A DNA stretch of 64,000 nt from Sphingomonas natans. GTDB taxonomy: Bacteria; Pseudomonadota; Alphaproteobacteria; Sphingomonadales; Sphingomonadaceae. The stretch is taken from the NCBI RefSeq assembly GCF_030546695.1, contig NZ_JAUOTP010000002.1, positions 310,001 to 374,000 of the forward strand, in the 5' to 3' direction. The notes beneath the pieces were generated by a model. The model had not been told where the DNA came from, searched no databases, and worked only from the letters and a program-made list of their open reading frames with translations. Positions 23,308 to 28,443 of the stretch are shown here, piece by piece (within the stretch, counting starts at the first letter, position 1; every line of letters starts with the position of its first letter). Made by a program: the position numbers and the translations under genes.

Positions 23308-24417
23308 TTACTGACCCGCACCCGGACCGAAGGTGATTTCCACGCGCCGGTTCTGCGGCTCGCGGACACCATCGGCCGTGTCGACCAGCGGACGGCTCTC
23401 GCCGAATGCTTCGGTCGCAAGCGCCGTCTCAGGCACGCCCTTGCTGGTCAGGTAAGCCTTGACCGAGTCCGCACGACGCTGGGAGAGACCAACGTTGTAC
23501 GAGTCCGAACCGGACTTATCGGTGTGGCCGGCCAGCATGACCGAAGCCTGACCCGTCGTCGCATAGGCCTGAGCCGCGTTGTCGAGGATCGAGGAAGCCT
23601 CCGGCGTGATCGCCGACTTATCCCAGTCGAAGAACACGATGAACGGACCAGGCGTCGCCGGGGGAGGCGGCGGCGGGGGCGGAGGAGGCGGCGGCGGCGG
23701 CGGCGGCGGCGGGGGAGGCGGCGGCGGTGCGGCCGGCTCGCCGAAGTTGTAGATCAGGCTCGCGAGAAGCGAGTGAGACCGGAACTTCGCCTTGGTCTCG
23801 CCAGCGGCCAGAGCGTTGAACGTGTTGCCAGCAACACTGACGCCATAGACGTTGAAGAAACGGTACTTCGCGCCGACGTCGATATGGTCGGTGACGGGAT
23901 ACAGCACGCCGGCCAGGACCTGCCACGCGAAGCGGCTGTCGCTGCCATCGGCGTACGGAATGCCGCCATACAGGCGATAGGCGTCATACTTGACGCGGGC
24001 GATACCGGCACCGGCGCCGACATAGCCGTTGATCGAGTCGTCCGCACCGAAGTTCAGGAGCGCGTTGCCCATGAAGCTCAGCACTTCGGTCGAGCCCGAA
24101 GCGTAACCGAAGTAGCGGCCGGCAGGCAGGCCACCGATGCGGGTCGTGGTCTCATGACCAGCCGCCTCGGCACGCTTGTAGCCGACTTCGCCCTCGAGGC
24201 GAACCATGCCCAGATCGTAGCCGACGACGCCGTCGACGTCGAAGCCGGTCTTGTGGTTGGCAGTCGCGGCGGGTGCAACGGCACCGATGTTGATCTTGGT
24301 ATCTTCGACGATCATGCCGCCGCCTTCGATACCGACGTACCACGCCTTGTCCTTGGCCATCGCCGGCGCGGCGAGCGCCGTGGAGGCCAAAACAGCCATC
24401 ATGGCAATTCTGCGCAT
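23308..24417 (-). CDS. OmpA family outer-membrane protein with long polyproline linker
   Basis: 369 residues. Signal peptide 1-21 (ending APAMA). Residues 22-230 form an eight-stranded OmpA-like barrel starting KDKAWYVGIEGGG. Next comes a linker of 23 consecutive prolines, then an OmpA/MotB peptidoglycan-binding domain (FDWDKSAITPEA, LAGHTDKSGSDSYNVGLSQRRA, PQNRRVEI) with the Asp and Arg that bind diaminopimelate. It tethers the outer membrane to the cell wall. AGGGG lies 8 bases before ATG 24417, which fixes the start. A strong terminator follows, consistent with an abundant monocistronic message. Confidence 0.93.
   Translation of the reverse strand: MRRIAMMAVLASTALAAPAMAKDKAWYVGIEGGGMIVEDTKINIGAVAPAATANHKTGFDVDGVVGYDLGMVRLEGEVGYKRAEAAGHETTTRIGGLPAGRYFGYASGSTEVLSFMGNALLNFGADDSINGYVGAGAGIARVKYDAYRLYGGIPYADGSDSRFAWQVLAGVLYPVTDHIDVGAKYRFFNVYGVSVAGNTFNALAAGETKAKFRSHSLLASLIYNFGEPAAPPPPPPPPPPPPPPPPPPPPPPPATPGPFIVFFDWDKSAITPEASSILDNAAQAYATTGQASVMLAGHTDKSGSDSYNVGLSQRRADSVKAYLTSKGVPETALATEAFGESRPLVDTADGVREPQNRRVEITFGPGAGQ
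23659..23727 (-). repeat. Run of 23 proline codons inside the OmpA-family gene
   Basis: All 23 codons are CCG, CCC, CCT or CCA in mixed order, so the run is kept at protein level more than as a pure triplet repeat. It makes a stiff spacer between barrel and peptidoglycan-binding domain. Translation of such a run should require elongation factor P, and the tract is prone to length variation. Confidence 0.85.
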
Positions 24418-24611: not shown

Positions 24612-25112
24612 TTAGGAACTGATCAAACCATGTGTCCTTAATGTCACAAGCACGGCCGCCAAAGCGGCCCGTGCCTCCGTGTCGATTGTCGCCCCGCCGC
24701 CCGGATTGGCGATGCCCGAAAGCCTCGGTCCCACCAGCTGCACGCCGCCGATCGTCAGGGCGGAAGCGGCAAGTGCGCCGCTGCCCCAGCCCGTTGCGCC
24801 CCGCTCGATCCGCAGGCCGTTCGTCCGCAGCCGGAGCGCCACGCCCTCGCGCGGGCGCAGGAATCGCCAGCCGCCGGCCGTCCACAAAGCGATCTCGTCC
24901 GCATGGCCGGACCAGTCGCCCGTCGGCATCGCCCCCACGATCCAGCTCTGGCCCTGCTCCGGCGCAGTCGGAGGGACGGTCTGGCCGACGGCTTCCACCA
25001 TTCCCCCCACCAGCCCGTCCAGCAGCAGGAGCGCCTCGTTGTGCAGCGCTTCCTTCTGCGCCTGCCCCTCCTGGAGCAGCGGCAGGGTCAGGCGCGGCGT
25101 CGTCTCGCTCAT
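24612..25112 (-). CDS. DUF2793 protein of the GTA/phage tail region
   Basis: 166 residues. The N-terminus LTLPLLQEGQAQKEALHNEALLLLD and later GQSWIVG, DEIALWTAGGWRFLRPREG are the DUF2793 pattern, found at the 3' end of sphingomonad GTA clusters and in related prophages, usually as a tail-tip or fibre component. The frame is intact and begins 10 bases after the stop of the preceding tail gene. With the capsid and tail core gone, the product has no visible particle to join. Confidence 0.82.
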   Translation of the reverse strand: MSETTPRLTLPLLQEGQAQKEALHNEALLLLDGLVGGMVEAVGQTVPPTAPEQGQSWIVGAMPTGDWSGHADEIALWTAGGWRFLRPREGVALRLRTNGLRIERGATGWGSGALAASALTIGGVQLVGPRLSGIANPGGGATIDTEARAALAAVLVTLRTHGLISS

Positions 25113-25122
25113 ATTGGGATCC

Positions 25123-26763
25123 TTACAGCGTGAAGGTGTGCGCCGCCGGCGGCAGCGACGCGCCGAGTCGCCCGATCTGGCTGATAGTGACCGTCAGGGC
25201 GCCAGGTCCGTCGCGCAGCTCCGGCGGCTGGTCGTCGGCCGCATAATCGAAGCTGGGCGATGTCACGTCGATGGTCCGCTCCGTTCCACCGCTCGCCAGC
25301 GTCAGCCGATAGAGCTCGCTCTCTTCGCCGAGCGGCACGTCGGCGCCGTCGAGCCAGGCCCAGCCGCGCCGGCTGCGGCGGATCCAGTCGATGCGGATTG
25401 CGCCGCCCGCGAGCCTGCGCGCGCGCAGCGCGACCGGACTCGGCGGACGAACGCCCCGCCCGATCACGATCGCCGCGCGCGTCGCGGGCGGCCCGGCATC
25501 GCCGGGCCCGATCGCGCTCACCGCGATCGGACCGCCCAGCGCGGTGGCGGGCAGGTCGATCGGCAGCAGCCGCCCGGCCTCGATCAGCACGAACCGCTCG
25601 TCCGTCTCATGCCCCGCCATCGCCCACTCGCTGCCGAACCGCCCGCGCAGCAGTCCACCGAGCCGCCACCGCCGCGGCGCGATCTGTTCGGCACCGGCGA
25701 ACGCGATCAGCTCGTCACCGATCAGCGCGAGGTTCCGCCCGTCGATGAGCGCCGCATCCCCGCCGCCCGGCACCGTCATATTGTCGTGGAGCAGCTCCAC
25801 CTCGATCGAGTTCGCCCGATCGAAAAGCTCGGACGGGCCCGGCGCCGGCGCGCGCGTCAATGTGCCCATGACCGCGGGCGGCGCGGTCGTCGCGAATGTC
25901 CGCCAGCTCGCGCCTCCGTCGAGGCTCAGGCTCGCGGTCGCGCGGCGACAGCGGGTGCCCGTCCCCGCCGCTGCGAGCCAGAGCCGCGGCGCGTCGCCTC
26001 CGCCACTGCCGTCGAAGGCGGGTATGTCGAGCAATTCGATCACCGTCGTCCCCGCCCGCGCGTCCGCGCCGGTCGTCGCCCGCCCGGGCGAGGCGCTGGC
26101 CGCCACCGCCCCCGGGCCGATCCGCTCAAGGTCGAGCTCCAGCGCCATCCGCTCCAGCGTCCAGCTCGCGATGCGCCACGCTGCGCCATCCAGCGTCACG
26201 CGTCCGCCGGCGCGCAGGTCGAGCCGACGCCAGGGCAGGCGCACCGTCGCGCGCTCACGCCCGCGCCAAACGCGCATCAGCGCGGCCTCGGCGAAACCCT
26301 TGGCCGCGCCCGCACCGATGGCCACCGGCAGCTCGATCCGATTGCTGCGCAGCGCGATACCGTCGCGCCGCGCGCGCTGGAGTCCCGCCTGATAGTCGCG
26401 CTCGGGCTCGTAATAGGCGATTGCGACCTCGTCGGGCAGAGTCGAGGCGGCGCGCCGGTCGCGCACGATGCGGCTCTCGCGCCGATCGTCGACGCGCGCG
26501 CCAAGTTCCTCCGGGTCGATCATGCTCGCGCTTGCATCGTCCAGCCGAAGCGTCGCGCCGTCGTCGACGATCGCCAGCGGAAACGCATCGCCCAGCGCCT
26601 CGATCGCACCGCGCACGCTGTCCCCGCCCGCCGCATAGCCGCCCACGGCCGTACCCGTCTCGCCGACGACTGCGCCTTCGCTCAGCGCCGCCACGATCGT
26701 GCCGACATCGACATCGCCCGCATCGGCCTCCACCTCGAACGTGAGCGAGCTCCGGGAAGGCAT
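25123..26763 (-). CDS. 3' half of GTA host-specificity (gp15-like) tail protein
   Basis: About 546 residues of continuous frame from ATG 26763 (ATG 26769 is equally possible). Both starts lie in terminase-derived sequence read in another frame. From residue 7 the sequence (LTFEVEADAGDVDVGTIVAAL, CRRATASLSLDGGASW, PRRWRLGGLLRGRFGSEWAM, GWAWLDGADVPLGEE) matches the C-terminal half of gp15/phage tail_3 proteins, which normally exceed 1,200 residues. The N-terminal half is missing. I read this as a deletion remnant whose frame has stayed open; any expressed protein would be a truncated tail-tip fragment. Confidence 0.75.
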   Translation of the reverse strand: MPSRSSLTFEVEADAGDVDVGTIVAALSEGAVVGETGTAVGGYAAGGDSVRGAIEALGDAFPLAIVDDGATLRLDDASASMIDPEELGARVDDRRESRIVRDRRAASTLPDEVAIAYYEPERDYQAGLQRARRDGIALRSNRIELPVAIGAGAAKGFAEAALMRVWRGRERATVRLPWRRLDLRAGGRVTLDGAAWRIASWTLERMALELDLERIGPGAVAASASPGRATTGADARAGTTVIELLDIPAFDGSGGGDAPRLWLAAAGTGTRCRRATASLSLDGGASWRTFATTAPPAVMGTLTRAPAPGPSELFDRANSIEVELLHDNMTVPGGGDAALIDGRNLALIGDELIAFAGAEQIAPRRWRLGGLLRGRFGSEWAMAGHETDERFVLIEAGRLLPIDLPATALGGPIAVSAIGPGDAGPPATRAAIVIGRGVRPPSPVALRARRLAGGAIRIDWIRRSRRGWAWLDGADVPLGEESELYRLTLASGGTERTIDVTSPSFDYAADDQPPELRDGPGALTVTISQIGRLGASLPPAAHTFTL

Positions 26764-27997
26764 CCACATGAGCCACCCGCCCCCGCGCGTATAACGCCTG
26801 CACCGGTTCGGCCCGCGTCACCTTGCCGTGCGACGCATGCACGCGCCGCACCGGGAGGCCGGCATCCGCCGCCAGCAGCACGCTCTCGACCATCGCTCCG
26901 CCATTGTTCGCCTCGGCCACCACCCGATCCGCACCGTGCCGCGCCGCCGCGCGCGCAACCGCATCCGCCCAGCGCTCCGGGCTCAGGCCCTGGACGCTCG
27001 CGTCCTCGAGCACATAGGCCCGCCCCGCCGCGTCCAGCCCGGCGACGACGATCCCGCACGCATCGCTCGCCGCGCCTGCTCCCGCGGGCGGATCCACCCC
27101 GATGACGATCCGCACCAGCGCCGGCGCGGCCCGCACCCGGCACGCCTCGATCTCGGCGCGCCGCCACAGGGCGCCCTCGATCTCCTCGATCAGCTCGCCG
27201 TCCAGCTCCTGTCGCCCGAAGCGCGTACCCGCATAGGTCTCCCGCATCATGTCGAGGAAGACGGGCGCGAGATGCGCCCGATTGTCCTGCGTCCGCCCGC
27301 GCGTGACGATCGTGCCCGCCTGCCCCACCAACTTGCGCACGAGCGGCACGGCGCGGGGCGTCGTCGTCGCCACGATCCGCGGATCGCTGCCGCCCCGCAA
27401 ACCCATCACCAGATTGTCCCACGCATCCATGCCACGCGGCCATTTGGCGATCTCGTCGCACCAGGCGAAATCATGCTGCGGGCCACGCAAGGCTTCCGGC
27501 TCGCCTGCCGAATAGAGCAAGGCCTGCGAGCCATTCTCCCACACCAGCCGCCGGTTCGACGCCTCATACTGGATCTGGCTCCTGTCGGGCGCGACCGCAA
27601 GCACGCCGCTCTCGCCCTCCACCATCACGGCGCGCGCCTCGTGATACGAGGCGGCGACCAAGGCGATGCGACTGCCCTTGTGCGTCTCCGCCTGCATCCG
27701 CACCCATTCGGCGCCCGCGCGCGTCTTGCCGAAGCCGCGCCCGGCGAGGATCAGCCACGTCCGCCAGTCGCCGTCGGGCGGCCATTGCGCGGCGCGCGAG
27801 GCGTAGACCCAGCGATCGATCAGCGCGAGCACCTCGCGCGCCGCCGGCTTCAGCCGCCGTCTGCCGGCATCGTCGAGCGCCGCGATCCGTTCCGCCGCCG
27901 AGGCGCCCTCGGGCAAGCACACCGCCTCGTCGCGCCGCGCCCCGATCCGATCGACCAGCGCCTGCGCGCGCAACCACGATCCGCCTGCCGCCGTCAT
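26741..27997 (-). pseudogene. GTA/phage large terminase (gp2), 3' end deleted
   Basis: Starts at ATG 27997 (MTAAGGSWLRAQ). The Walker A motif GRGFGKT is at residues 86-92, followed by WENGSQALLYSAGEPEALRGPQ and WCDEIAKWP (Walker B/catalytic region) and a nuclease domain with VIGVDPPAG and VVAEANNGG. Homology stops after AHVDAFPEL (about residue 412). The final ~35 residues (typically ending in a DALVWAL motif) are missing, and the frame runs on out of phase over the tail gene to 26255. This is a terminase truncated by the same deletion that removed the GTA middle. The ATG overlaps the TGA of gp1. Confidence 0.8.
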
Positions 27998-28443
27998 CCC
28001 GTGCCGCCCATCCGCCGGTTCATCCGGCTCAGCCGGGCCAGCAGCACCTTGGCTGCCTCGGCGTCGCTCAGTGCGATCGGGGCAGAGTGTCCCGTCACGG
28101 TCGCGCGATGCTGTCGCAGCAGGCTGAGCGCCGCGGGGGCCGAGAAGGCGCGCAATCCTTCGGCTTTGTCTTACGATACACCGTTCAACGCGCGGTCCAG
28201 CAGCTCCGCCTCCAAGCGAACATAACCTTCGCTGAGTGCCGCGGCCCAGCCTGCGCGGAACGCGTCGGACGTCGTCCGCTTGCGGTACACGCTGCCGGAC
28301 GACAGGCCGGAGGCCTTGCTGGCCTCGCGAATATTGGCCGTCTGGCCCAGCGTCTCGAGAAACAGCGCCTCGCGCTCTGCGCTCCAGCGCACCGGCGTGC
28401 GCGACGGCGCCCGGCGCGATCGGACGATCGTCCGCTTGCCCAT
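27994..28443 (-). pseudogene. GTA gp1-like small terminase gene with an internal stop
   Basis: Start ATG 28443 has GGGAG upstream. The first 90 codons give a helix-turn-helix-like protein (ALFLETLGQTANIREASKASGL, VYRKRTTSDAFRAGW, LLDRALNGVS) typical of gp1, then TAA at 28171-28173. The same frame continues open for 58 more codons (DKAEGLRAFSAP, LSLLRQHRATVTG, LLARLSRMNRRMGGTG) and ends in TGA overlapping the terminase ATG, exactly as an intact gp1 would. So a single nonsense change splits the gene. gp1 of GTAs is thought to act as the small terminase. Confidence 0.72.

Follow-up and report, generated by a model that had tools for sequence, protein, structure and literature searches.

Gene transfer agents (GTAs) pose a puzzle: a suicidal DNA-transfer trait persists, and non-producers of it arise. 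What has become of this trait at one place is the question raised by a locus of Sphingomonas natans (RefSeq assembly GCF_030546695.1; genome G000 below). The locus lies in a 64,000-nucleotide stretch of contig NZ_JAUOTP010000002.1 (positions 310,001 to 374,000), here called the window, and comprises minus-strand genes between window positions 24612 and 28443 that are related to the head-tail cluster of RcGTA, the GTA of Rhodobacter capsulatus. We conclude that it is very probably a collapsed, inactive remnant of an RcGTA-like head-tail cluster, with a large internal loss and an internal stop in gp1, and that it is one of many truncations of a locus that is syntenic across the family.

Gene content and junction of the window locus

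Family matches directly identified the genes and gave the minus-strand order gp1, large terminase, gp15 and DUF2793, as in the first-pass annotation of the window. The small terminase gene gp1 starts at 28443 and is closed by an in-frame TAA at 28173-28171. Its 5' part (28171..28443, minus strand) matched the PHROG terminase small subunit (E = 2.8e-11) and positions 1-70 of the GTA gp1 profile; the homologue in the congener G001 is intact, with 185 aa. Past the stop, in an unchanged frame, a separate piece (27994..28170, minus strand) matched profile positions 83-132. Thus, the gp1 stop noted at first pass is real. The large terminase gene gp2 (26748..27997, minus strand) lacks its final ~30 residues. 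It matched Terminase_6N (1.3e-26) and Terminase_6C (2.8e-18) and is ~76% identical to G001 at the DNA level. The gene for the host-specificity/tail protein gp15 (25123..26739, minus strand) has lost its native start. It matched Rcc01698_C (8e-28), Phage-tail_3 (4.3e-22) and the gp15 profile, aligned to the gp15 of G023 and ends in a stop at 25123. The first-pass annotation had described this piece as the 3' half of the gene, with the loss reaching its middle. A loss from gp15 was indeed found, but about three quarters of the gene remain (profile positions 186-707 of 711). The last gene, encoding the DUF2793 tail fibre (24612..25112, minus strand; 2.8e-25), is uninterrupted and has 166 aa, as in G001.

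The breakpoint can be seen directly. Terminase DNA homology to the congeners G001 and G005 stops at 26748, and the gp15 translation from 26739 aligns to the gp15 of G023 from residue 1, placing the start of gp15 homology at or before 26739. The junction is therefore confined to ~10 bases (26739..26748), at which the terminase C-terminal end, gp3-gp14 and the start of gp15 are missing. The terminase and gp15 frames differ across it, in agreement with the abrupt, out-of-frame switch noted earlier. In 52 fuller loci, which matched the capsid and the whole length of both terminase and gp15, the counterpart of the missing stretch measured 7.8-13.7 kb (median 11.2 kb). The view that a GTA cluster has lost its middle was thus upheld, with ~11 kb more between the two sides in fuller relatives.

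Profile annotation of the window locus detected no portal, protease, capsid or other middle gene. By descent, the locus belongs with the RcGTA-like clusters, since gp1, TerL, gp15 and the tail-fibre gene follow each other as in GTA clusters and occupy the GTA locus of the family. As a functional unit it does not, since the middle genes are absent there, gp1 is stopped and gp2 is truncated. Elsewhere in G000, terminase and capsid queries revealed no second terminase and no GTA-type capsid: the terminase query hit one place only, and the sole capsid match (42%) lay 230 kb away within a prophage-like region. This distant capsid was rejected as the lost GTA middle in view of its prophage-like surroundings, judged by eye from open reading frames (ORFs), and weak gp4/gp5 profile matches. 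The GTA_TIM profile had no match in G000; note that its response to complete sphingomonad clusters is not established.

The prophage-like region (G000:C6:558500-578000; L228) lies outside the window and has an HK97-type capsid and a protease match, its other ORFs being judged by eye.

The locus in congeners and across the family

We compared the syntenic place in a genus sample of seven genomes and found other truncations in G001, G002 and G004 and a GTA-free site in G003. G001 has an intact gp1, a complete terminase and portal profile positions 2-69, followed by gp15 positions 555-687 and a DUF2793 gene of 166 aa. The window shows the reverse pattern, lacking the terminase end and portal but keeping gp15 from position 186. 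These breakpoints are mutually exclusive, so neither locus derives from the other and the two collapses are independent. In G002, gp1 adjoins the gp15 tail and DUF2793, whereas G004 retains only gp15 from position 645 and DUF2793. In G003 (L065), no GTA gene was detected between the left flank and OmpA, both of which are present. The left flank of the window is common to the congeners. A fuller cluster was probably present in the ancestor of the genus, because G005 keeps gp1, terminase, portal, gp3.5, gp4 and capsid, spread over two contigs (gp1 and the first terminase part on one; the terminase end and the remaining genes on the other). No DNA match to the locus was found in G006, a genome 71% complete. 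The locus comparison lent no support to a single deletion or to a dated breakpoint, both of which had been proposed.

In G005, the fullest congener cluster seen, gp1 and the terminase are separated by two ORFs, of 107 and 241 aa (L057 1077-2126).

The right-hand neighbour of the window locus is an OmpA-family gene with a proline-rich linker (23308..24417, minus strand; start picked by homology). A homologue of its barrel part was present at E<=1e-20 in 190 of 199 family genomes, and OmpA is the next gene past DUF2793 in loci retaining DUF2793. We therefore used OmpA as the anchor for a census of 104 loci: 100 hand-picked down the E-value list of OmpA matches, plus G023, G011, G001 and the window. 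The picks skipped some short contigs and second copies, and the sample is not random. Locus profiles were trained on the census loci, starting with proteins of G011 except for gp1, which was taken from G001, and OmpA, for which the window protein was used.

These anchors bear on whether the window locus is an ordinary prophage remnant rather than a GTA. Its terminase and tail genes belong to phage-like families, and G000 has another prophage-like region. However, the gene order and OmpA neighbour are those of the family GTA clusters, the left flank is that of the congeners, and gp1, gp2 and gp15 match profiles trained on family clusters. We regard a prophage origin as exceedingly unlikely.

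Synteny was directly observed across the census. The cluster was near complete (at least 6 of 7 tested middle genes) in 60 of the 104 loci, 12 had no GTA gene within ~18 kb upstream of that OmpA copy, and 32 were partial. G188 has one OmpA copy without GTA genes and another with a full cluster. Five partial loci share one recurrent form, described below. The other 27, from 23 genera and including the window and G001, vary in their breakpoints, and two of them are nearly complete. Pieces detected in these 27 were gp1 in 19, gp2 in 14, capsid in 4, gp15 in 18 and DUF2793 in 25, with both ends represented in 17. Among one-ended loci, G143 keeps the left end with DUF2793 lost and G077 has gp1 only; G182, G008, G086 and G004 have only gp15 and DUF2793 pieces, and G152, G191 and G065 only DUF2793 pieces. 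Retention of both ends was rejected as a sign of selection, since internal deletions leave the ends anyway and a census anchored on OmpA is biased towards the right end. With its many truncations and its intact counterparts in sister species, the syntenic locus amounts to a natural deletion series for the question of how GTAs persist and non-producers arise.

The open flanking frames had suggested that the loss was recent. This was not borne out: the opposite strand is also open across the same stretch, for 808 aa, making open frames a weak sign of recency. We next consider the ratio of nonsynonymous to synonymous substitution (dN/dS), obtained by NG86 counting, which saturates. For the window-G001 pair, terminase dN/dS was 0.31, compared to 0.07-0.29 in 9 intact pairs; other cuts gave 0.33, and 0.50 over the first 114 codons. 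For gp15 we obtained 0.39 over a 132-codon end piece, compared to 0.08-0.34 for whole genes in 9 intact pairs. The values for gp1 (0.29 over 70 codons; 0.08-0.46 in 8 intact pairs) and DUF2793 (0.29; 0.12-0.32 in 8 intact pairs) lay within the intact ranges, and the window was slightly above them for terminase and gp15 only. The intact ranges omit G062/G139, one of ten pairs labelled intact, since one member is truncated.

Several points weigh against a collapsed, inactive remnant. DUF2793 and gp1 are under ordinary constraint, so part of the locus may still be useful. The signal of relaxed selection is small, comes from a saturating counting method and, for gp15, sets an end piece against whole genes. 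The genome-wide search for missing genes covered the capsid and the GTA_TIM profile only. Finally, misassembly was ruled out only indirectly, from a single assembly. An artificial junction, with a full cluster between the halves in the real chromosome, is nevertheless highly improbable. The locus is inside a 646-kb contig, completeness of the assembly is scored at 100%, the capsid query turned up no GTA-type copy anywhere in it, and three congeners are truncated at the same place while a fourth has a GTA-free site, three of these four being assemblies of one or two contigs.

A collapsed remnant thus stays our preferred reading. A large internal loss, in one or more deletions, would have taken the terminase end, portal, protease, capsid, most tail genes and the gp15 start, and gp1 also carries its internal stop. 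Judging by the missing genes, the locus would be incapable of particle formation. Such a loss may be tolerated or favoured, as particle production kills the producer and non-producing 'cheater' lineages could persist.

A recurrent terminase-DUF2793 joint

Five census genomes from four genera (G099, G104, G103, G171 and G007) share one joint with equal spacing. It leads from terminase ...RGP(Q/E)HSHA (RGAQHSHA in G103) to DUF2793 ...QAQKE or QSQKE, and it provides DUF2793 with a new ATG made from terminase codons. The cut falls just before what we take to be the Walker B acids of the terminase (WCDE). On either side of the joint is a short conserved motif (RGPQHSHA and GQAQKE), and this pair might act as arms for recombination. 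Microhomology was rejected as its cause: in 31 loci the observed register had a mean of 7.4 matches in 27, compared to 4.2-9.5 at offsets of -12 to +12.

We searched for the joint as a pattern (CATGC, 8 bases, then QAQKE/QSQKE codons), which other forms escape. It matched 14 of 397 family genomes, in 9 of 96 genera, all 14 being the recurrent form; a backward control pattern had zero matches in the same 397 genomes. A slightly longer pattern returned 29 stretches from genome_contigs (84,980 species genomes). Of these, 27 were the recurrent form, from sphingomonads by title (Blastomonas, Croceicoccus, Erythrobacter, Novosphingobium, Qipengyuania and others) or loosely named metagenome-assembled genomes, and two were unrelated (Ktedonobacter, Phormidesmis). 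With G336, G306, G351 and G389, sequence matching gave 31 distinct genomes of many sphingomonad genera with a nucleotide-identical joint (L165-L178; L179-L207 except L182 and L190). The pattern had no exact match in IMG/VR. It was also absent from G000 (0 matches), whose breakpoints differ. The possibility that the window represents a natural short arrangement, which the first-pass annotation had named as contrary to its proposal, was thus partly realized: short forms are common in the family, mostly with differing breakpoints, and one identical form is widespread, but it is not that of the window.

Twenty later loci from 19 genomes were added to the 104, partly chosen to find congeners of recurrent-form genomes. 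Pattern-free inspection of all these loci gave six joints of terminase stump to DUF2793, five of the recurrent form and one different (G142). In G142 (L216), within ~1.3 kb upstream of OmpA, the terminase (to about residue 104) continues in frame into DUF2793 (from about residue 30), and the fusion has a late stop.

The frames of these mini-loci are largely open. The terminase stump is unbroken from near its start to the joint in 30 of 31 (L183 is cut by its contig), gp1 was found in 30 of 31 (only a part in L184 and, at the start of its contig, in L204), and DUF2793 has 132-152 aa in 28 of 31 (98 aa in L199; in L185 and L202 the locus ends within it). All 14 recurrent-form family genomes have the stump, with no second terminase place except for a weak 27% match in G153; the capsid query found nothing in 13 of the 14 and a distant copy (39%) on another contig in G104. 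A second, shorter gp1-like piece lies just upstream of gp1 in L186, L192, L197, L177, L143, L155, L217, L222 and L224.

Could the window locus likewise be a mini-locus that is kept for a function, and not a dead remnant? Its DUF2793 gene is uninterrupted and constrained, and the gp1/terminase-N/DUF2793 form of other genera has open frames in nearly all 31 genomes. However, the window gp1 is interrupted, its terminase runs out of frame into gp15, gp15 is without its native start, and the breakpoints are unlike those of any examined congener. We consider this possibility improbable. In the mini-loci themselves, stump dN/dS ranged over 0.09-0.29 across 4 mini pairs. Of seven mini-intact congener pairs, six spanned 0.03-0.40 and one yielded no value, and 15 mini pairs with at least 80% stump identity spanned 0.07-0.21. 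These low values were rejected as proof of function, since young deletions give equal ones.

Did the joint originate once or many times? Near-complete clusters were found among congeners in g2, g48, g53, g92, g96, g90 and g107 (the G165 stretch is cut on the left). Left flanks of short and intact congeners were 85-88% identical in DNA for G099/G163 and 81% for G007/G113, with pieces only for G171/G217. On a tree of gp1, terminase N-part and DUF2793 (46 selected rows, 19 genera), the short form requires 13 changes. Supported branches impose at least 11 of these, and the count was as low in 420 of 500 shuffles. Short and intact forms are sisters in G007/G113, G240/G135 and G099/G163; the G103 branch is very long. 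The terminase part alone (90 rows) requires 17 changes, with 3 forced by supported branches. None of 500 shuffles was as low on this tree, indicating that some minis cluster.

The 45 bases on either side of the joint were compared in 14 minis, noting that intact loci outnumber minis in this comparison. On the DUF2793 side, the best other-genus mini was less similar than the best other-genus intact locus in 14 of 14; on the terminase side this held in 12 of 14, with one tie and one reverse. Mean similarity on the terminase side was slightly higher to minis than to intact loci, and the DUF2793 side showed no mini-mini excess. Only 1 of 406 mini pairs, Qipengyuania XHP0211 (L192) and G389 (L177), showed higher similarity for DUF2793 than for the stump of the terminase. 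In this pair the far left flank is 96% identical, gp1 59% and the stump 67%; identity climbs to at least 90% at the joint and averages 87% over a stretch that starts ~320 bases ahead of the joint and extends past DUF2793. This mosaic indicates that gp1 and the stump were exchanged in one of the two, with a boundary near the joint. The flanks of the joint are thus swappable, and flank trees may overcount origins.

Interleaving with intact species and the lack of a mini-mini excess on the DUF2793 side would argue against a single origin. The L192/L177 mosaic, the clustering on the terminase tree and the slight terminase-side excess would argue for a single origin, or at least for exchange. Either the joint arose many times, or it spread or persisted while its flanks were exchanged. 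A hotspot, a spreading deletion and selection are candidate causes.

In a published description, the RcGTA ATPase domain carries both Walker A and Walker B. We raise as a tentative idea, on balance doubtful, that the Sphingomonadales GTA cluster has been repeatedly removed at the identical two nucleotides, leaving a standard mini-locus that serves as an inherited off-state of the GTA, or cheater allele. This would occur by dedicated site-directed excision, or through spread of one deletion by DNA uptake and recombination, with the joint kept and the flanks swapped. Such a mini-locus would consist of gp1, a stump that retains Walker A and has lost the Walker B acids, and a DUF2793 gene with a new start codon; conceivably, the stump may hinder packaging through gp1 binding. 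An identical truncated form in at least 9 genera allows a sharp test: if excision is programmed or transferred, single species should contain both the intact and the short state, which plain decay does not predict.

Comparison with known systems

The recurrent joint was not described in the titles and opening abstract lines of literature on sphingomonad GTA decay and DUF2793, or in the portions consulted of PMC10883770, PMC9836097, PMC6821227 and PMC6854486. Its novelty is provisional because the most relevant older paper, Viswanathan 2017, lies outside this comparison. The locus of that study is probably the same as the family GTA locus, and its element is predicted to be RcGTA-like in the excerpt of PMC6821227.

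Pseudogenised and lost GTA clusters and cheaters in other alphaproteobacteria are discussed by Kogay and Zhaxybayeva (2024; PMC10883770), whose available sections also name DUF2793 as the RcGTA tail fibre. The authors argue for lysis of producers, for continued benefit to non-producers and for pseudogenised clusters as possible recent cheaters. As far as those sections go, the phenomenon and the cheater explanation are the same as here; incomplete regions were set aside in that work, and its sections contained no breakpoint census or recurrent junction. The abstract of the 2017 study reportedly mentions a proline-rich OmpA. The closest known system is the RcGTA head-tail cluster itself, of R. 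capsulatus and the fuller sphingomonad loci. The window differs from it in lacking gp3-gp14, in its interrupted gp1 and in its truncated gp2 and gp15, and shares with it the gene families, the synteny and the order gp1, gp2 ... gp15, DUF2793.

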